Assembly: GCF_029338575.1 (NCBI RefSeq)
Contig: NZ_CP119993.1
Location: 682,001-746,000 of the forward strand
Source: Halomarina halobia
GTDB lineage: Archaea; Halobacteriota; Halobacteria; Halobacteriales; Haloarculaceae
Direction: 5' to 3'
Length of the DNA stretch: 64,000 bases
In this document: piece by piece, positions 40,911 to 60,523 of the stretch
Layout: every line of letters begins with the position of its first letter
How positions within the stretch are numbered: position 1 is the first letter of the stretch
The notes under the pieces: generated by a model
What the model was told of the DNA's origin: nothing
Seen by the model: only the letters and a program-made list of their open reading frames with translations
Databases searched by the model: none
Translations under genes and position numbers: made by a program

Positions 40911-41310
40911 AGCTGCTGTCTCACTGGTTATGCTCCGTTAGACGTACGTTGCACCCTCGAACCAGAGTCGGTCTCTCGTGGACGCCGAGGTACCGCCTCC
41001 CCTCGCTGACGAGTGCACACGCGGCCGTCGGCTCCGGGTCGATAGGACGACGGACGGGCATCGGATCGTTGGGTCACGCTGGCGACGATGATTCCGCTGC
41101 CGATCGTCCGACGAGAGGAGATCGGAACGGTCGGTCTGCCGTGCAAAGCGGTACCCCCGACACCGAGTGAAAGACGGACGGCTCCGACCTCGAATCCCGA
41201 CTGTATCCGACGACGTGCCGGTGGTACACCGTGGGAACGATACCTGTTCGGACAGGTGTATCCGAGCTGACGCCGGATCGAGGCAGACGTAACACCGTAC
41301 GGATCAACTC

Positions 41311-41335
41311 ACCCACCCCTCGCACCGAGTGAAAG
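41311..41335 (-). repeat. Origin box A (inverted, left side)
   Basis: On the minus strand TTTCACTCGGTGCGAGGGG continues into TGGGT. Full match to the core consensus. Outermost left copy. Confidence 0.8.
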
Positions 41336-41360
41336 CGGGGGAACGGGGGAGGGTGATGGA

Positions 41361-41383
41361 GGTACCCCGCGTACCGAGTGTAT
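41361..41383 (-). repeat. Origin box A' (inverted, degenerate)
   Basis: On the minus strand ATACACTCGGTACGCGGGGT keeps the ACTCGGTACG core but lacks the long G-string. Possibly a weak Orc site. Confidence 0.5.
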
Positions 41384-41432
41384 GCTGAACGGGGCGGAAG
41401 GAAACGGGGTCGGTGGAGGGAACGTATCGGAG

Positions 41433-41459
41433 ACCCCCACCCCTCACACCGAGTGAAAG
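41433..41459 (-). repeat. Origin box B (inverted, next to the AT-rich segment)
   Basis: On the minus strand TTTCACTCGGTGTGAGGGG runs into TGGGGGT. Perfect core and G-string, identical over its core to box I on the right side. Confidence 0.85.
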
Positions 41460-41592
41460 CGCGAGAGAACCCGAGTGGGTAGAGGCCGTAGAAACGCGCA
41501 CGCATTTTGGATATATAAATTGCAATCCATTCTAGTCGCTAACCGTGACGTAATCGCTAGACATAGCCGATCCGGACCAACCAGATATTTTC

Positions 41593-41605
41593 CCTTACAG
41601 TAAGG
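41593..41605. repeat. Hairpin CCTTAC-A-GTAAGG in the unwinding element
   Basis: Perfect 6-bp arms around one base. It lies immediately before TATAAATAC, within the AT-rich segment. Confidence 0.5.
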
Positions 41606-41620
41606 TATAAATACTACTAA

Positions 41621-41636
41621 CTAGCACTAGTGCTAG
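41621..41636. repeat. Perfect 16-bp palindrome CTAGCACTAGTGCTAG
   Basis: The 16 bases are self-complementary. It marks the junction between the AT-rich segment and the polypurine run. A cruciform or a dimeric protein site is possible. Confidence 0.6.
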
Positions 41637-41694
41637 AGAAGAGAAGAAGGAAAGAAGAGGAGAGAGGAGGAAGAAAGGGACGAGAGGGAGAAAA
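41635..41694 (+). repeat. Polypurine tract, 60 bases with a single C
   Basis: Positions 41635-41680 are 46 purines without interruption (AGAGAAGAGAAGAAGGAAAG is the start). A single C at 41681 is followed by 13 further purines. Such complete strand asymmetry directly beside the unwinding element is unlikely to be chance. It could favour strand opening or triplex formation. Confidence 0.7.
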
Positions 41695-41737
41695 CGCACG
41701 GGGGACGGACAAATGTAGGTCAAGGCCGCACGCGATA

Positions 41738-41756
41738 TACCCTGTAACGTAGGGTA
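41738..41756. repeat. Inverted repeat TACCCT-N7-AGGGTA
   Basis: Six-base perfect arms around GTAACGT, just before the first direct origin box. TACCCT recurs at 41767-41772. Role unknown. Confidence 0.45.
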
Positions 41757-41777
41757 GCGTCGGATGTACCCTCTACG

Positions 41778-41800
41778 TTTTCACTCGGTGTGAGGGGTGT
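41778..41800 (+). repeat. Origin box C (direct)
   Basis: TTTTCACTCGGTGTGAGGGG continues into TGT. Full core match with a short G-string. Innermost copy on the right of the AT-rich segment. Confidence 0.8.
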
Positions 41801-41833
41801 CTGCCGTCGGTCAGACGACGCGCCGTGTCGCCG

Positions 41834-41855
41834 TTTCACTCGGTACGAGGGGGAG
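41834..41855 (+). repeat. Origin box D (direct)
   Basis: TTTCACTCGGTACGAGGGGG followed by AG. The core has TA in place of TG. Confidence 0.75.
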
Positions 41856-42003
41856 CGGTAAGCGTCGTCTCTCACTACGTCTATCGGACGGATCGGCGCA
41901 GTACGTTCTTGAACGGTCGATTTCCACAGAGTCCTCTTTATCGCAGTCTACCCTGTCGCACTGTTCTACCGTGCCATCTGTATCGAGAGCGTAATCGAGT
42001 GGC

Positions 42004-42025
42004 TTTCACTCGGTGTAGGGGGTGG
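42004..42025 (+). repeat. Origin box E (direct, one base shorter)
   Basis: TTTCACTCGGTGTAGGGGGT followed by GG. The GAG of the consensus is shortened to AG, but the G-string is kept. Confidence 0.7.
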
Positions 42026-42067
42026 TAAGTGGCGAGGGCTCGGTGATGGTGGGTAGACGCTCGGAGT

Positions 42068-42095
42068 ATTCACTCGGTACGAGGGGGGAAGGGGG
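42068..42095 (+). repeat. Origin box F (direct)
   Basis: ATTCACTCGGTACGAGGGGG is followed by GAAGGGGG, giving a long G-string. It has one mismatch at the front. Confidence 0.7.
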
Positions 42096-42237
42096 AGGGA
42101 GAAGGGAGAACAAGGATTGAGCAGGGAAAAACTCCCCGGAACGGCTGGAACCCTTCGTTCCGTCTCTACGTTTCTCCTTACTCCCTCTTCTCGCCCCTTT
42201 CTCGCTTCCCCCTTCACTCGTCCCCACCGCTCACGGC

Positions 42238-42264
42238 TTTCACTCGGTGCGAGGGGAGGGGGTG
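42238..42264 (+). repeat. Origin box G (direct)
   Basis: TTTCACTCGGTGCGAGGGGA continues into GGGGGTG. Full core and G-string. Confidence 0.8.
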
Positions 42265-42356
42265 CTCGAGATATGTCCCCGCCTGCGTGCGCGCGGCCGC
42301 ACAACGGACCGAGGCTCACCCACGGACGAGGCCCACCCCCTCCCCCGTTCCACCGC

Positions 42357-42383
42357 TTTCACTCGGTGCGAGGGGTGGGGGTG
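42357..42383 (+). repeat. Origin box H (direct)
   Basis: TTTCACTCGGTGCGAGGGGT continues into GGGGGTG. Full consensus. Confidence 0.85.
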
Positions 42384-42457
42384 GCGGTGACCGCGGGAGC
42401 GATAGGTCGAGGGACGGGGGATCGAGTGTGGAGGAGTCGCCCGGTACAGTCACACCG

Positions 42458-42485
42458 TTTTCACTCGGTGTGAGGGGTGGGGGTG
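42458..42485 (+). repeat. Origin box I (direct)
   Basis: TTTTCACTCGGTGTGAGGGG continues into TGGGGGTG. Full consensus, the same core as inverted box B. Confidence 0.85.
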
Positions 42486-42730: not shown

Positions 42731-43993
42731 ATGACAGAAAACCCGTCGCGATCGCCCGGCCGGGATGCGACCCCGGATGCGGATCAGGTCGACCCCGACC
42801 CCGTGTCGGACGACGACCTGTTCAGCACTGGCGATATCTTCGCCCGGCGGGAGCTCCTCCGGGTCGGTCACGTCCCCGACCGGGACCGGATCGTGGGTCG
42901 GGACAACGAGATGCAGCAGGTCGGGAACGCCCTCGGTCCCGCGACGCACGGCGACCCGCCCCGCAATCTCGTCATCTTCGGCAAGACCGGGACCGGAAAG
43001 TCACTCGTCTCCCGACACATCTGTCGACGCGCACGCGGCCGAGCCGAGGCGAACGGCGTGGAACTGCTCCACGCGTACGTCGATTGCTCCGACGCCGACA
43101 CCGAAACGCGCGTCGTCCGCGACATGACGTTTCAGGTCCGCGACGAGATCGACCCCGACCGGGAGATCCCGATCGCGGGGATCGGGGCCTCGGAGTACTA
43201 CCGGTATCTGTGGGACCTCCTCGACGAGATCGACGTCTTCGTCGTGATCCTCGACGAGATCGACAAACTCCGCGACGATCAGGTGCTGATGCAACTGTCC
43301 CGGGCCGAGGAGTCGGGGAAGACGAACACGTTCGTCGGCGTAATCTCGATCAGCAACAAGATCGAGTACCGGGAGCGCCTGAACGAGCGGATCAACTCGA
43401 GCCTACAGGATCGGGAACTCACCTTCCACCCCTACGACGCGGAGCAGCTCCGGAACATCCTCGAGAATCGCCGCGACGCCTTCCACGACGGCGTCCTCAG
43501 CAGGGACGTGATCCCGCGAACGTCCGCGCTCGCCGCGCGGGAGCACGGCGACGCGCGGAAGGCCATCGACATCCTGTTCGAGGCCGGAGCACTCGCAGAA
43601 GCGAGCGGGGACGGGGAGGTGACGTCGGATCACGTCGACGACGCCCAACAGCGAACGGAGGTCAAGCGGTTCCAGGACCTCGTCTCCGGATCCACCCCGC
43701 ACGTGAAGTACGCGCTTCGAGCGCTCGCGTTGCTGACCGCCCAGAGCGAGGAGAGCGAGACGAAGATGTTCTCGACGAGTGAGATCTACAGCCTGTACGA
43801 ACGGCTCGCGGAGCGGGACGACACCAAACCGCTGTCGCACGACCGGGTGTACCGGCTACTGAAGGAACAGTCGTTTCTCGGGATCACCGAATCGCACCTG
43901 ACCGGCGGCGGTAAGGGGCAGGGATCGTACCTCGCACATCGCCTGATGAAGGAACCGGAGATCGTGCTTGAGGCGCTCGGCAAGGGTCCGTGA
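42731..43993 (+). CDS. orc1: Orc1/Cdc6 replication initiator
   Basis: A 420-residue AAA+ initiator that recognises origin boxes and recruits MCM. Walker A is GKTGTGKS (84-91), Walker B LDEID (174-178), sensor 1 lies in GVISISNKIEYRERL, and the initiator-specific REHGDARKAIDILFEAG follows as sensor 2. The C-terminal third is the winged-helix DNA-binding domain (MFSTSEIYSLYERLAERDDT, LSHDRVYRLLKEQSFLGITE). Length matches haloarchaeal Orc proteins. It lies directly beside the cluster of origin boxes, so it is probably the cognate initiator. Haloarchaea have many Orc paralogues; which one this is cannot be told here. Confidence 0.93.
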   Translation: MTENPSRSPGRDATPDADQVDPDPVSDDDLFSTGDIFARRELLRVGHVPDRDRIVGRDNEMQQVGNALGPATHGDPPRNLVIFGKTGTGKSLVSRHICRRARGRAEANGVELLHAYVDCSDADTETRVVRDMTFQVRDEIDPDREIPIAGIGASEYYRYLWDLLDEIDVFVVILDEIDKLRDDQVLMQLSRAEESGKTNTFVGVISISNKIEYRERLNERINSSLQDRELTFHPYDAEQLRNILENRRDAFHDGVLSRDVIPRTSALAAREHGDARKAIDILFEAGALAEASGDGEVTSDHVDDAQQRTEVKRFQDLVSGSTPHVKYALRALALLTAQSEESETKMFSTSEIYSLYERLAERDDTKPLSHDRVYRLLKEQSFLGITESHLTGGGKGQGSYLAHRLMKEPEIVLEALGKGP

Positions 43994-44859
43994 TCCGATC
44001 GAGCACGCAGTCGATCCGCCAGCCTCGGGGTGGTCGATTCGGAGTCCGCGACTCGGCTACGCGCCCGGGGTCGGACCCCGTGAGGCCGTCCAAAGGTGCT
44101 CTCTCGACCGAGTCACTTCGGATGAGGGATCGTCGAATCGATCGCCGGTACGGGACGGACGACGACGAGGCCTCGTCGAAAGTATCTACCCGATTACACC
44201 GTGAAAACTTGCCTGGTTTGATCGTGGGAACTCGGCGTCTTACGGAGGTGGTCTCGCGGTGAACGTTCGGGTTCCTCGACTGCGAACGTAGTGGGCGCGG
44301 TGGATGCCGTGAACGTGGTGGATGCCGTGAACGTGGTGGATGCCGTGAACGTGGTGGATGCCGTGAACGTGGTGGATACTGTGAACGTGGTGGATGCCGT
44401 GGTCGCGACGGCGAGGGGGCTGGGCCTCCCTGTAGACGGTCCCGGTTCGACGAAACCGTTCCAGCCCTCGGATCGTCCAGACGGGGTGACGGTGATCCGT
44501 GGTTCCCTCCTTCCTTCTTTCCTTCCTCACCGTCGAACCCGAGTGCAACGCGTGCAGCGCTCGGTCAGACTGGCGCAGTTCACTCGACCGCCTACCCGGC
44601 TCCGCGAGTCGTGGGCGTCGACATGCGACTCCTCTGTACGACTCCACCGACCGCTAGCACCTCCGGCGAGTCGGGGTCGAGCGAACGCGCGTCGAGAAGC
44701 CCTCGATCCGCCCGCGTCGATGTACGCCGGCGGCCTCTCGTCGGGATCCGTTAACGAGTGATAACTTATAATCGGTTCCGACCGTTCGGCGTGGACTACG
44801 GGGATGGACACCGTCGCCCACGAGATCCGCTAACAGGTATACGTCTGTTACTCTACCTG
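43994..44859. other. Gene-free region with an 18-bp minisatellite, 866 bases
   Basis: Frames are present on both strands, but they derive their length from the tandem repeat and from Arg/Ser-rich reading of GC-rich DNA. I see no gene. The interval separates the convergent ends of orc1 and the SMC-like gene. Confidence 0.5.
44299..44406 (+). repeat. Tandem repeat, six 18-bp units
   Basis: The unit GGTGGATGCCGTGAACGT is repeated from 44299. Units 1-4 are identical, unit 5 (44371) has ATACTG for ATGCCG, and unit 6 (44389) ends GGTCGC. Being a multiple of three, the repeat opens long frames on both strands (VDAVNV or HHVHGI), which explains spurious gene predictions here. Confidence 0.85.
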
Positions 44860-44863
44860 TTAG
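44830..44863. terminator. Inverted repeat over the stop codon of the SMC-like gene
   Basis: CTAACAGGTA (44830-44839) and TACCTGTTAG (44854-44863) form perfect 10-bp arms around a 14-base loop. The gene's TAA lies in the right arm. It may act as a transcription terminator or an mRNA-stabilising hairpin; no T-run follows. Confidence 0.5.
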
Positions 44864-46815
44864 ATCTCGGTCACGCGGTGGTAGTCCTGGTCGAGCGCCT
44901 GCGCGTCGTCCTCGAGGAGGGCGACGACGAGGTAGCTCGCGTAGTCGGCGAAGTAGTCGACGAGTCGTGCGATGCGGTCGGCGTCGATGGCTTCGAGGGA
45001 GTCGAGGAGCATGAAGGGGCAGGTTTCGTAGACGTCGTGGACGAGGTAGCCCGCCAGCGCGAAGACGAGGCCGGTGACCTCGCGTTCGGACTCGCTCAGG
45101 TGGTCGATCGTGTCCTCGTACGCCGTTCCCGATTCCGACGCCCGAATCACGTGCAGGTCGAACATGGACTTCGTGACCTTCCGTCGACCTTCACGAACGT
45201 CGCGTTCGGTGCGCTCGATCCATACGCGCTCGAGGTTCGAGTACTCGAGGATGTCGAGGACCGTCTCCATGTGTTCGTTGAACTCGGAGACGGCCCCCTC
45301 CTCGATCCGTTCGATGCGCGTCCGCAGGTCGGTCAGTTCGTCCTGAAGCTCCTCGAGCTGGGCTTCGATCTGCTCGCGCTCGGCGAGTCGGCTCTCGATG
45401 CTCGCGACCTCCTCGTCGATGTCGTGGATGTCGCTCCCGATGCGGTCGATCTCGAACTCCAGCTGGTTCACCTCCCGGTGGAGATCCAGCACCTCGCCGT
45501 AATCGGTGGTCTCGAGATCCTCCACCGCTGTCTCGAGCGAATCGACCTCCGACTGCAGCTCGTCGCGCCGCTCCTCCAGTTCCGCGATGCGCCCTTCGGT
45601 CCCCTCGATGTCGTCGTCCAGCCGGTCGACGGAGCGTTCCAGCTGCTCGCGCCGCTGCCGTTCGCGTTCGAGCTCCCGCTTCTCCGAGGTGAGGTCGTCG
45701 AGCTCCGACTCGACCTCCCGGACGTCCCCGACCTTGCGCTGAGACAGTTCACGCAGGCGGTCGACCGTCCCCTCGATCTGGTCGGCCTCGACCGGGGAGC
45801 CACACGTCCAGCACGTGACCTGTTCCTCCTCGAGGAGCTGATCGGTCACCGAACCGCCGGATTCGGCGTCAGTGTCGGTGTTCGCGTCCAACGCCTCGAG
45901 CACGTCGCTGTTCGCGTCGTCCAGGAGGTCCTGATTGAACTGGATGATGTTCTGGAGGTCGCTGATGTCCGCCTCCAGGCGCTGCTTCCGTTCGCGGAGC
46001 TGGCGGATGTCGGACTCGATGTCCGCGATGTCGCCCGCGGGCGTCTCGGAGAGCTCGTCGAGGTCGTCCTCGGCGTCGGCTCTGTCCTCCCGCAGGGACG
46101 ACAGCCGTTCACGCTGGGTCTCGATGTCGTATCGAACGTCCTCGAGCTGCGAGCGCGTCTCGCGGAGCTCCTCGAACTTCGACTCGAGTTCGGATTTCTC
46201 CTCCCGCGTCTCCTCTACGTCCCGGTCCGCCGCGTCGAGTTCCGCCTGCTTCTCCTCCAGTTCCTCGCGCTTCTCCTCGAGCCGCTGTTCGAGACGCTTG
46301 CGCTCCTGTTCGAGGTCGGGAAGGCGCTCGTCGAGACCGTCGAGGTCCTCGAGCTCCTGGCGCAGTTGGCGCTTCTCGGCTTCGAGCTGTTCGATCTCCG
46401 CCTGCAACTGGTCGGTGTCGACCGGCCGCATGATGATGTCGCGCAGGTTTTCCTGGCGCGCGACGGCGAGTCGCGCCTCGTTCGATTCCAGCAGGAACGC
46501 GAAGAGGTCCGCGACGTCCGCGTCGTCGAGATACGGGTCGCCGCTGAAGGTGAGCGAGCCGTCGGTCCGCGTGAGCCGCCGCGTGTAGGTCTCATCGCCG
46601 ATCGCGAGCTCGACTGAACCCTCGTCCGCGTCCCCCTTGAGCGACGCGCCGTTACTACCGCAGGCGGCCATGATCGCCTGGAGGAGGGACGTGCGGTTCG
46701 TCGCGTTTCGCCCCGAGAGCACGTTCACTCCCGGTGAGAGCGACGTCGCCGTCTCCTCGATCCCGCCGACGTTGCGAACGTGGAGGTCGACGTCAGCTTT
46801 CGTCTTCTGTTCCAT
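44860..46815 (-). CDS. Archaea-specific SMC/Rad50-like protein (Sph family)
   Basis: A 651-residue coiled-coil ATPase-like protein. The head begins with LHVRNVGGIEETATSLSPGV and a deviant Walker A GRNATNRTS (35-43), in which the usual lysine is arginine. Two long coiled coils (about 135-305 and 345-530) flank a Rad50-type zinc hook CWTC (C335, C338). The C-terminal head has HLSESEREVTGLVFALAGYL (signature motif) and FMLLDSLEAIDADRIARLVD (Walker B). It matches the haloarchaeal 'archaea-specific SMC-related' or Sph group. The rdfA gene lies 87 bases upstream on the same strand, an arrangement I recall from Haloferax (rdfA-sph3), where it affects cell shape. Confidence 0.85.
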   Translation of the reverse strand: MEQKTKADVDLHVRNVGGIEETATSLSPGVNVLSGRNATNRTSLLQAIMAACGSNGASLKGDADEGSVELAIGDETYTRRLTRTDGSLTFSGDPYLDDADVADLFAFLLESNEARLAVARQENLRDIIMRPVDTDQLQAEIEQLEAEKRQLRQELEDLDGLDERLPDLEQERKRLEQRLEEKREELEEKQAELDAADRDVEETREEKSELESKFEELRETRSQLEDVRYDIETQRERLSSLREDRADAEDDLDELSETPAGDIADIESDIRQLRERKQRLEADISDLQNIIQFNQDLLDDANSDVLEALDANTDTDAESGGSVTDQLLEEEQVTCWTCGSPVEADQIEGTVDRLRELSQRKVGDVREVESELDDLTSEKRELERERQRREQLERSVDRLDDDIEGTEGRIAELEERRDELQSEVDSLETAVEDLETTDYGEVLDLHREVNQLEFEIDRIGSDIHDIDEEVASIESRLAEREQIEAQLEELQDELTDLRTRIERIEEGAVSEFNEHMETVLDILEYSNLERVWIERTERDVREGRRKVTKSMFDLHVIRASESGTAYEDTIDHLSESEREVTGLVFALAGYLVHDVYETCPFMLLDSLEAIDADRIARLVDYFADYASYLVVALLEDDAQALDQDYHRVTEI

Positions 46816-46902
46816 GGTTACCGATAACCGGCGAGACGAGCATAAATCAACCGATCTCGGAACGCGTTTCCGACCGATGGAGCGAGCGCCGACGCGAGGC
46901 GG

Positions 46903-47526
46903 CTACGCCGTACCGGCGGCGCAATCGCACCCGCCCTCCTCGAGCAGTTCGTCCACCGTGTACTGGGTGTTGCAGTCCTCACAGTAGATCCGGACGTCGA
47001 CCATGGTGCGGAAGGGACCGACGTCGAGGTCGCCGCCCGCCTGTAGTTGCTCCAGTTGACTCTCCGTGACGGTGGCGGTCCGTCCGGCGAGCTTCTGGAC
47101 GCGCTCTGCGACCTTCTCGCGCTGGTCGCGGTCGTCCTTTACCCGTTCCGCGTTCCGGTACTTCAGCAGGTAGGTGCGGATCGCCTGGTACGAGACGAAG
47201 TCGCGCTGCAGTTCGTCGGGTTCGAGGCCGGCGCGTTCCAGTCGCCGTTCGATCTGGATGCGCGATGCACCGCTCACCTCGTCGTCCGTCAGAAGGCGAT
47301 AGAGGTTGTCGATCTCCTCCTCCACGGAGTTCATGCCGGCTTCGCTCATCGCGTTCCGCAGCAGCCGCTTGTTGAACCACGCGGCCAGATCGCGGAGGCT
47401 CCACCGGTCGTCGATCCGGGTCCACCGCGCTTCGAGTTCCTCGCCGGCGTCTCCGAGGCCGTACTTGTCGATCATGCGCTTGACTTTCGGTGACCTCCCC
47501 GACCCTCTCACTTTCGAACTCGTCAT
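46903..47526 (-). CDS. rdfA: Rod-determining factor RdfA
   Basis: A 207-residue protein matching the haloarchaeal RdfA family: KVKRMIDKYGLGDAGEELEA, TRIDDRWSLRDLAAWFNKRL, LYRLLTDDEVSGASRIQIER, and a C-terminal zinc-ribbon-like end with IYCEDCNTQYTVDEL and GGCDC. In Haloferax volcanii, RdfA is needed for the rod form (established, from memory). The middle region is helical and looks DNA- or protein-binding. I start at ATG 47526; an extra upstream stretch to 47577 has no family character. It forms an operon with the SMC-like gene. Confidence 0.85.
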   Translation of the reverse strand: MTSSKVRGSGRSPKVKRMIDKYGLGDAGEELEARWTRIDDRWSLRDLAAWFNKRLLRNAMSEAGMNSVEEEIDNLYRLLTDDEVSGASRIQIERRLERAGLEPDELQRDFVSYQAIRTYLLKYRNAERVKDDRDQREKVAERVQKLAGRTATVTESQLEQLQAGGDLDVGPFRTMVDVRIYCEDCNTQYTVDELLEEGGCDCAAGTA

Positions 47527-50793: not shown

Positions 50794-51570
50794 TTACTCG
50801 ATCCCGGCGAAGACGATGTCGGCGCGGATCGCGTCGGCCCCCTGGGTGACGAGCGAGGCCAGTTCGCCACTGGCGATGCTAGGCTGGATCTCGGCCGCGG
50901 GACCGTAGGCGGCGAGCGCGCCGTACACCGTCTCCCCGGTGAGGATGGGCGCGGCGACGCCGACCATCCCCTCGATGAGTTCGCCCCAGTCGACCGCGTG
51001 TCCGCGCCGGCGGACGGTTTCGAGTTCCTCCCGGAGCGCGTCCGCGTCGGTCACGGTGCGGTTCGTCCGCGACGGGAGGCCGTGGCGCGCTACGATCTCG
51101 TCGACCCGCTCGTCGGGGAGGTGCGCGAGGATCGCCTTTCCCGGGGCGTTGGAGTGGAGGTGCGCGCGGGTCGGATAGACGTGTCGCGCCGTCGGCGGGA
51201 GGTCCTCGTAGTCCCAGCGGGTCGCCAGCAGGATGGCACCCATACCGTTCTCCTCGATGACGAGCTGGCTGTGCGCGTCGGCCTGTTCCTGGAGGCGTCT
51301 GACCGTTTCGCGGCCGCGGACGAACACCTCGCGGCTGTTGCGCGACTCCCGACCGACGTGCAAGTACTTGATGCCGAGACGGTACCGCCCGCCGTCCTCG
51401 ACGAGGTAGTCGAGCCGCTCCAGCGTCCGGAGGTGGTTGTGGACCGTACTCTTCGGCAGGTCGAGCGCCGCCGCGAGCTCGGTCACGCCGGCTCGTCCCC
51501 GTTCGCGGATCTCGTCGATCACCTGGTAGGAGCGTTTCACCGAGTTGATCGGAACCTCGGGGTCGTCCAT
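50794..51570 (-). CDS. IclR family transcriptional regulator
   Basis: A 258-residue regulator with the N-terminal winged helix (INSVKRSYQVIDEIRERGRA, LPKSTVHNHLRTLERLDYLV) and C-terminal effector domain (YPTRAHLHSNAPGKAILAHL, HAVDWGELIEGMVGVAAPIL). The ATG at 51570 is used. It lies 156 bases upstream of the acyl-CoA synthetase on the same strand, and 398 bases from the divergent dehydrogenase operon, so either may be its target. Confidence 0.9.
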   Translation of the reverse strand: MDDPEVPINSVKRSYQVIDEIRERGRAGVTELAAALDLPKSTVHNHLRTLERLDYLVEDGGRYRLGIKYLHVGRESRNSREVFVRGRETVRRLQEQADAHSQLVIEENGMGAILLATRWDYEDLPPTARHVYPTRAHLHSNAPGKAILAHLPDERVDEIVARHGLPSRTNRTVTDADALREELETVRRRGHAVDWGELIEGMVGVAAPILTGETVYGALAAYGPAAEIQPSIASGELASLVTQGADAIRADIVFAGIE

Positions 51571-51968
51571 ACCCCGTTCTCGGCGAGAGCGCACTTAGCC
51601 CTGTCCCACGATGTGGGAACGCGTCCCGTTTCGGCGAGAGCGACTGACCGAGTTTACCCCTGCTATTCAGAATATTGACATAGGTGTCGACGGTTATCGT
51701 ACCTGCGCGGTGGGAAGATTCACCGACGGCAGTCACCGACCCTCGGCACCGCTTGAAAACCGCTAACAGCGCAATTCAGGCCGTAAAAAGGCTAGATGGG
51801 GAATCGGGAGAACCGTGACGACGTCCGATACTCCGTATTCTATCCGGGGGACGACGGTGTTCAGACTGGATACTGAACACTATTTTTACCATTTCGTCGT
51901 TTGACTTAAACCCCCGCGTATGACCAGCGATGTCGTTAAGTCTTGAATGTCGAAATACGACGCGCGGC
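51571..51968. promoter_or_regulatory. Divergent regulatory region between IclR and the GMC dehydrogenase operon
   Basis: AT-rich elements face both ways: ATTCAGAATATTGACATAGG (around 51665-51685) and CACTATTTTTACCATTTCGT near 51880-51900. The nearest to the plus-strand operon, GTTTGACTTAAACCC, is about 60 bases before its start. No gene lies here. Confidence 0.45.
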
Positions 51969-59606: not shown

Positions 59607-60347
59607 TTATCGAGACCTCCGGTTGCCGCCGCGAATACCCATCCGTTTCGAGACGGTTTGGGCCGTCTTCTTGACGAGTTTCGTGTAATTTGACTCAACC
59701 TGTTCGCTCACGCTTGGAGCGTCGACGAACAGGGCGACTGCGCCGATTGGTTCGCCGTCGTCCATCGTCACCGGTGCGGCGATCTCCCGCAGGCCAGTCT
59801 CGTCGTCGGTCTGTGCGATCCAGCCCTCGCCCGCCGACCCCAAGCGCCCGGTGCCGTTAGCTGCGGACGGACCGACGGGCGAGTCTGAACCAACTCTGTC
59901 GAGACTGGCCAGAATCGCCCGACCTGAAGCGGTTTCGTCGAGCGAGATCCGAGTCCCTGCTTTGACGCCAGGTTGGCCGTCGCGGTCCGGGTCGATGGAG
60001 TGGATGTAAACGCCCACGTCGCCGTCGCGAATCAGTAACGTCGCGACTTCGTCCGCGATCGTCGCAAGCTCCTGAAGGCTAGCGATCGCCTCCTGGAATA
60101 GAGGCTCTTCGTTACGAACGGTCGACCCGAACTCATAGAACCGGTATCCGAGTCGATACTTGTCACCGTCACGACGCAGGAAACCATGGTCGTGGAGGGT
60201 CACGAGGTGCTTGTGGACGTTAGCCTTTGAGACGTCGAGCGTCCGCGCGATTTCGGTCGGGCCCGTGATTTTGCGGTCTTGGAGGACCTCCAGGATGCTC
60301 ACGGCCGTGTCGATGGCGGTGACGTGGTACCGCTCGTCGGCGATCAT
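59607..60347 (-). CDS. IclR family transcriptional regulator
   Basis: A 246-residue regulator. The winged helix covers DTAVSILEVLQDRKITGPTE and SKANVHKHLVTLHDHGFLRR. The effector domain is recognisable (GVKAGTRISLDETASGRAIL, DETGLREIAAPVTMDDGEPI). The start is at ATG 60347; a GTG four codons earlier is possible. It lies between the two divergently oriented sulfatase genes and probably controls both. The ligand is unknown but may be a desulfated sugar or derivative. Confidence 0.9.
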   Translation of the reverse strand: MIADERYHVTAIDTAVSILEVLQDRKITGPTEIARTLDVSKANVHKHLVTLHDHGFLRRDGDKYRLGYRFYEFGSTVRNEEPLFQEAIASLQELATIADEVATLLIRDGDVGVYIHSIDPDRDGQPGVKAGTRISLDETASGRAILASLDRVGSDSPVGPSAANGTGRLGSAGEGWIAQTDDETGLREIAAPVTMDDGEPIGAVALFVDAPSVSEQVESNYTKLVKKTAQTVSKRMGIRGGNRRSR

Positions 60348-60523
60348 ACCCAGAATCACATGGCGAGTGTCAATAAGCGTTCGCTATCTTCGAACAATGT
60401 CGTTGAAGAACGAGACGGTATCACTGCCATCGGCGTGACACGGGAACTGACGCGGCGACTCGGAGTCGGTCCGATCAGCGCCCGCCTACCGATATCGGGG
60501 ACTCACCGACGGTGGCACAAAAA

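Follow-up and report, generated by a model that had tools for sequence, protein, structure and literature searches.

Cell shape in haloarchaea has been linked to a pair of genes, one for an SMC-like protein (Sph) and one for RdfA. For Haloferax volcanii, PMC10869688 reports that deletion of either hvo_2174 (rdfA) or sph3 leaves disks only and abolishes motility, that shape defects come without growth defects, and that, in 24 genomes, 42 of 50 SMC-like genes and 42 of 54 RdfA-family genes are adjacent. Here, we describe such a pair in 64,000 nucleotides of Halomarina halobia contig NZ_CP119993.1 (the window, by which we mean this whole stretch), where sph (44860..46815, minus strand) and rdfA (46903..47526, minus strand) lie beside an orc1 gene. 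The locus is an ordinary copy of the known haloarchaeal Sph-RdfA cell-shape pair; the pair, its name and its role in shape have already been published. The initial annotation of this DNA, made from the sequence alone, had named RdfA as a shape factor of Haloferax, which PMC10869688 bears out.

The SMC-like partner is an archaea-specific SMC-related protein (ASRP), a family with a zinc hook that was defined by Yoshinaga and colleagues, who describe flanking genes without a consensus (PMC9389158). A study of gene conversion reports that all four sph deletions reduce survival and that deletions of sph2 and sph3 have opposite effects on shape (PMC11276520), and rdfA and sph3 have been placed in the CsmR regulon of Hfx. 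volcanii (PMC13286277, 2026). The phenotypes given for the sph3 deletion conflict, with only rods in PMC13286277 and disks only in PMC10869688.

The explanation that we prefer, and hold with some confidence, is that the window carries a typical haloarchaeal Sph-RdfA shape module, in which Sph would act as a nucleotide-clamped scaffold with RdfA as its dedicated partner, and that it came to lie beside an origin by local accident. What the locus contributes is a further copy of a known pair; the testable leads come from the survey of its relatives.

The Sph head and its partner RdfA

Sph (651 amino acids) scores 713.1 bits against NCBIfam NF045487, 'archaea-specific SMC-related protein', whose cut-off is 300; the assignment also draws on alignment and on an AlphaFold model that is closest to Rad50/SMC. 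In this model, long helices (residues 135-300 and 344-523) flank the zinc hook CWTC (residues 335-338; 45802..45813, minus strand; located, like the motifs below, by alignment of the family), and the whole resembles Rad50/SMC heads with zinc-hook arms (Rad50 7zr1, E 9e-13; human Rad50 9q9h, Z 14.6, root-mean-square deviation 9.6 over 377 residues). RdfA (rod-determining factor A, 207 amino acids) matches Pfam PF21811 with 248.4 bits against a gathering cut-off of 27. Alignment and model (predicted local distance difference test 81) give it a helical body and a C-terminal Cys cluster; as regards a kleisin-like fold, such as the partner in an SMC-kleisin-KITE complex would have, the model had no Foldseek match at E<=0.001, its best VIA match reached Z 4.5, and there was no convincing solved relative among the matches listed. 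The two genes share a strand, rdfA first, with 87 bp between the rdfA stop and the sph start, and sph stands tail to tail with orc1, 866 bp from stop to stop. An SMC-like zinc-hook protein and RdfA had thus been rightly recognised as a pair about 0.9 kb from orc1.

Walker A, the ABC signature and Walker B are all present in the window Sph. Where an active ABC/SMC ATPase combines a Walker A Lys with a Walker B Glu, this protein has Arg and Ser, as does its clade, Sph2 included: Walker A reads GRNATNRTS (residues 35-43; 46687..46713, minus strand), with Arg replacing Lys, and the Walker B/D-loop reads LLDSLEAID (residues 603-611; 44983..45009, minus strand), with Ser at the position of the expected catalytic Glu. 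The signature is LSESE (residues 573-577; 45085..45099, minus strand).

To compare this head with its relatives, we used 77 genomes of the host's family. From at least about 150 matches we picked 120 places with full-length Sph regions (up to 20 kb), leaving out fragments and the weakest matches; with the window, this gives 121 regions, including some overlapping or identical ones, such as L073/L165 and L127/L128. For example, L127 and L128 hold the same Sph-RdfA pair at both ends of a 120.6-kb contig (G020:C3), probably the uncut overlap of a circular plasmid. The sequence set comprises 123 Sph proteins (120 distinct), and the Walker A count leaves out L171, which did not align.

Arg occupies the Walker A position in 100 of 122 haloarchaeal Sph and Lys in the remaining 22. 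In the position that follows the Walker B aspartate, every one of the 121 readable sequences has Ser, Gly, Ala or Gln, and none has Glu (0/121). The main head type (98 sequences) has Arg and Ser, with LSESE as its signature and a Leu in the H-loop position, and a second type (7 sequences) has Lys, Ser, LAESE and His. On the Sph tree, built with FastTree only, the Lys/Arg state needs 3 changes, and the Lys clade is nested in the Arg clade. The atypical Walker A that the initial annotation had pointed out is real, and a local mutation is rejected, as the change is clade-wide. On the other hand, methanogen relatives on the plasmids pMETHO01 and pMETEV01 have NASGKTS together with LLDEL or VLDEL and so keep the canonical Lys and Glu, which suggests that the canonical residues are probably the ancestral state.

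We read these data as follows. Sph is a Rad50-like coiled-coil ATPase, short and zinc-hooked, and throughout the family its head has lost the canonical catalytic residues; with this loss, the head probably still binds nucleotide and dimerises but hydrolyses it little or slowly, so that Sph may be less a motor than a scaffold clamped by nucleotide. Several points weigh against this. Walker A types with Lys and with Arg alternate within the family (22 of 122 and 3 tree changes, as given above), so Arg may be compatible with hydrolysis. The Walker B Glu is absent in other SMC-like ATPases too. At the Walker A loop and close to Walker B, confidence in the Sph model is low, and the model is therefore silent on catalysis. 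Finally, sph deletions are reported to impair gene conversion (PMC11276520), so DNA may be a target as well. Point mutants could answer whether shape control needs ATP hydrolysis, given the loss of Glu in haloarchaea and two canonical relatives in methanogens.

The bond between the two genes is close. RdfA lies within 400 bp of 110 of the 123 Sph genes and further off in 3, and 10 have no RdfA in their region. The 110 pairs occur in every relative orientation (76 with rdfA first on the same strand, 15 convergent, 11 with sph first and 8 divergent), which argues for a bond beyond shared transcription. RdfA also stands beside Sph in 13 of 14 sampled plasmid regions, which are every fourth of the best 60 of 135 plasmid records (H20 replaces the unannotated H19, and H15 is omitted because it equals L208). 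In our explanation, RdfA would be a dedicated partner of Sph, probably needed jointly with it for rod shape and motility, and the two proteins may touch directly. A viral origin of the pair was considered and rejected: two viral-contig scans turned up no Sph and, for RdfA, a single weak fragment, and a phage collection likewise gave no Sph.

The neighbouring replication origin

The orc1/cdc6 initiator gene (42731..43993, plus strand; TIGR02928, 376 bits) is convergent with sph. Upstream of it, at 41154..42477, there are 11 matches to TTTCACTCGGTNNGAGGGG, where shuffling gives an expectation of 0.25. These repeats resemble origin recognition boxes (ORB); 4 point one way and 7 the other, and they surround an AT-rich core near 41500-41640. 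Opposed ORB groups round an AT-rich core are the layout of haloarchaeal origins, and the segment is a convincing one; an origin beside orc1, as initially proposed, is thus borne out. It lies on the far side of orc1, which leaves about 2.4 kb between the pair and the nearest ORB and about 3.2 kb between the pair and the core. The gap between orc1 and sph also holds an 18-bp tandem repeat (44299..44401; 5.7 copies, 95% matches).

The initial annotation had gone further and supposed that a pair so near an origin would be present at the highest gene dose and could tie morphology to the organisation of the chromosome. That the origin is real, and that some relatives also have their pair near an Orc gene, speaks for this idea, but the adjacency is kept neither in the nearest relative nor in the family. 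Orc genes occur in 4 of the 121 Sph regions (the window, L111, L127 and L157), where 3.68 would be expected from 499 Orc genes in 270 Mb; the genome-wide counts of Orc genes, and of IclR genes below, used thresholds differing from those of the local searches, and, since regions overlap and genomes are related, the Poisson figures here and below are guides and not probabilities. Among 20 control regions about 100 kb away from Sph regions, 3 hold an Orc gene, above the 0.74 genes expected. The Orc profile is not blind, as it recovers all seven Orc genes of the host's own genome, which sit on three contigs.

Outside the family, we hand-picked 14 of 116 genomes with RdfA (more complete, with few contigs) and found 29 RdfA genes among the matches listed; 1 of the 29 is within 10 kb of an Orc gene, with 1.32 expected. 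In the 14 plasmid regions, an Orc gene lies within 8 kb in none (0/14). Among named relatives, the nearest that we found is Halomarina sp. BND7. Its orthologs of Orc1 (95% identical) and Sph (83%) are both on a 617-kb plasmid, but the former maps to 227 kb and the Sph-RdfA ortholog to 491-493 kb, which puts them 262 kb apart. The BND7 Orc1 ortholog (L203:9001-10263, NZ_CP100455.1) is annotated merely as an 'AAA family ATPase'.

Evidence from megaplasmids weighs against a mere accident. Among 22 plasmid records that hold both this Orc type and Sph, each represented by places among the matches listed, the two are within 10 kb in 7 (2.46 expected, tail 0.006) and within 3 kb in 4 (1.07 expected). 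Individual cases include two Haladaptatus plasmids with orc, ParA, a hypothetical gene, rdfA and sph in a row, a lone RdfA 1.1 kb from an Orc gene in Halomarina sp. BCD28, and a same-genus genome (G030, L111) with Orc 1.6 kb from Sph by profile limits. Since order and orientation differ, this is no conserved unit; we read it as a weak leaning of accessory genes on megaplasmids towards the neighbourhood of one Orc type. Separately, a Halobacterium salinarum plasmid carries, some 3 kb away from rdfA-sph2, a short Orc-like frame (L225:1555-2352) that scores 283 bits with the Orc profile.

The synteny of orc, sph and rdfA is thus not generally conserved, and what stands of it is the weak megaplasmid tendency. 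Taking the 121 family regions, the 20 controls, the 29 RdfA genes and the 22 plasmid records together, we reject a meaningful tie of the pair to the origin: the link is mostly coincidence, the coupling idea can largely be dropped, and we consider the gene-dose model very improbable.

A related possibility is that Sph-RdfA organises or partitions its own replicon alongside Orc and ParA. The gene row of the two Haladaptatus species, ParA-like genes nearby in Natronorubrum and Salinigranum, and the weak orc tendency would fit this, as would the home contig of the window: C2 (1.16 Mb) bears every copy that the genome has, 3 of Sph and 4 of RdfA. However, Orc is at chance across whole genomes, some records have several pairs per replicon, many pairs are on the largest contigs, and the reported deletions change shape with growth normal (PMC10869688), so we regard a role in replicon maintenance as improbable. 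As to the fourth RdfA gene (C2:580903-581484), there is no Sph among the matches near it. Our preferred explanation, a shape module, would treat the site beside the origin as a local accident of megaplasmid rearrangement with no conserved coupling to replication.

A recurrent IclR-type neighbour

A different neighbour recurs. In an unguided clustering of neighbouring frames, IclR-type regulators are the most frequent family among the neighbours, outranked only by the pair's own Sph and RdfA and by a frame antisense to Sph. A profile search finds them in 42 of the 121 Sph regions and in 1 of the 20 controls; these regions hold 44 IclR genes, where 3.48 would be expected (471 in 270 Mb), and 26 of the 44 lie no more than 1 kb from the pair. 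An IclR gene also stands beside the pair on plasmid pHG3 of Haloferax gibbonsii (L227). Of the 29 RdfA genes outside the family, 10 have an IclR gene within 3 kb, compared with 0.35 expected by genome density and with a mean of 1.45 and a maximum of 6 in 5000 same-contig shuffles. Furthermore, 7 of the 14 sampled plasmid regions have one within 8 kb, often amid genes of sugar, uronate or aromatic catabolism. On the Sph tree, the IclR label is carried by 33 of 123 rows in 13 genera and needs 20 changes. As the IclR proteins also form a diverse set, the association seems to have arisen repeatedly rather than by a single inheritance. Our literature search did not find a link between IclR and the shape pair in print, and 'IclR' is absent from the main text of PMC10869688.

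These observations would extend the preferred explanation: the pair is possibly a shape module often placed in catabolic islands and under nutrient control. In its full form, which we put forward tentatively, sph-rdfA has been recruited to catabolic islands where local IclR regulators switch it, so that the substrate would set rods and swimming. The enrichment over controls, the closeness, the recurrence outside the family and on plasmids, and the seemingly repeated association all point this way. On the other hand, 79 of the 121 regions have no IclR gene, positions and orientations relative to the pair vary, and the pair of Hfx. volcanii is reported to be regulated by CsmR (PMC13286277). The window itself is a weak instance, as its IclR gene (50794..51594, minus strand; PF01614 and PF09339) lies 3.2 kb away on the upstream side of rdfA, with an acyl-CoA ligase gene in between.

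The functional link may nevertheless be apparent only. IclR-ruled catabolic islands and sph-rdfA could both be accessory megaplasmid cargo that share insertion hot spots, and the matches of Sph on 135 plasmid records agree with such hitch-hiking. A transposase-like cluster (family name given by eye) occurs in 21 of the 121 Sph regions, but also in 6 of the 20 controls. As same-contig shuffles fail to reproduce the association and most IclR genes are within 1 kb of the pair, we think shared cargo status, on balance, somewhat unlikely to be the whole account. Control by neighbouring IclR regulators would be part of the shape module that we favour, and the recurrence of this neighbour points to a direct experiment on the dependence of archaeal cell shape on nutrients.

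In the window, the segment 51930-63249 resembles a catabolic island, with genes that we named by eye as a GMC-type oxidoreductase, two sulfatase-like genes and a TrmB-like regulator. A second IclR gene, by profile match, is at 59610-60383.

Comparison with methanogen operons and other known systems

The ASRP-RdfA pair extends beyond haloarchaea, on plasmids, either by descent or by transfer. In Methanohalobium evestigatum (L228:2922-6087, pMETEV01), the gene after the ASRP is annotated as RdfA (35.7 bits, cut-off 27). In Methanomethylovorans hollandica (L226:3068-6082, pMETHO01), the corresponding gene is 'hypothetical' and scores 26.5 bits against PF21811 (E 6.5e-6), just below the cut-off; its product is diverged and lacks the Cys cluster. 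Searching ten non-haloarchaeal genomes with the RdfA alignment gave a significant match in two (G224 and G352), each directly beside an ASRP, and none in the other eight; the two are probably the same species as the plasmid records and hence not independent.

In both methanogens, the RdfA gene is followed by one for a winged-helix protein, and the two proteins are homologous (30% identity, E 2e-18); that of Methanomethylovorans has two separate winged-helix matches, and that of Methanohalobium has one above the cut-off. These operons resemble the window in that the ASRP adjoins RdfA directly. They differ in the canonical Lys and Glu, in the reversed gene order and in the third, tandem winged-helix gene, for which we searched next to the window pair and found none. 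A KITE-like third gene in haloarchaea was also rejected: when compared with the methanogen gene, helix-turn-helix (HTH) proteins beside Sph (BND7) and beside RdfA (Salinigranum) were not significantly similar, and for the BND7 protein there are transposase-type HTH matches.

The IclR association and the methanogen operon are, in our view, the leads worth following. Taken together, they allow a bolder picture, which we consider rather unlikely as a whole: RdfA-Sph could be a portable shape switch, with each catabolic island's own copy under a local IclR sensor, so that the nutrient would call for rods and swimming. RdfA would serve an SMC-type complex as an accessory subunit. In methanogens, this complex would still combine a canonical ATPase with a third, KITE-like tandem winged-helix subunit; in haloarchaea, it would have lost its catalytic residues when it turned into a shape scaffold.

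The remaining systems place the window pair more narrowly. The sph3-rdfA locus of Hfx. volcanii has adjacent SMC-like and RdfA genes of the same families; the likeness is at the level of families, as the window Sph may correspond to Sph3 or to another Sph, and the neighbour there is ddfA, whereas it is orc1 in the window. Sph2 and RdfA of Halobacterium salinarum (L225) have the same rdfA-sph order, Walker A GRNATGRTS and Walker B LLDSLEAID, although the neighbours are kdp genes, unlike in the window, and this Sph2 is about 42% identical to a main-clade Sph. Sulfolobus coalescin (ClsN) shares the ASRP family and the zinc hook, but it acts on chromosome compartments, and an RdfA partner is not described for it in the part of PMC9389158 on which we draw. 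Finally, Rad50, the nearest solved fold to Sph, shares head, coiled coil and zinc hook with it, while Sph has a much shorter coiled coil, degenerate catalytic residues and, as its neighbour, RdfA rather than Mre11.

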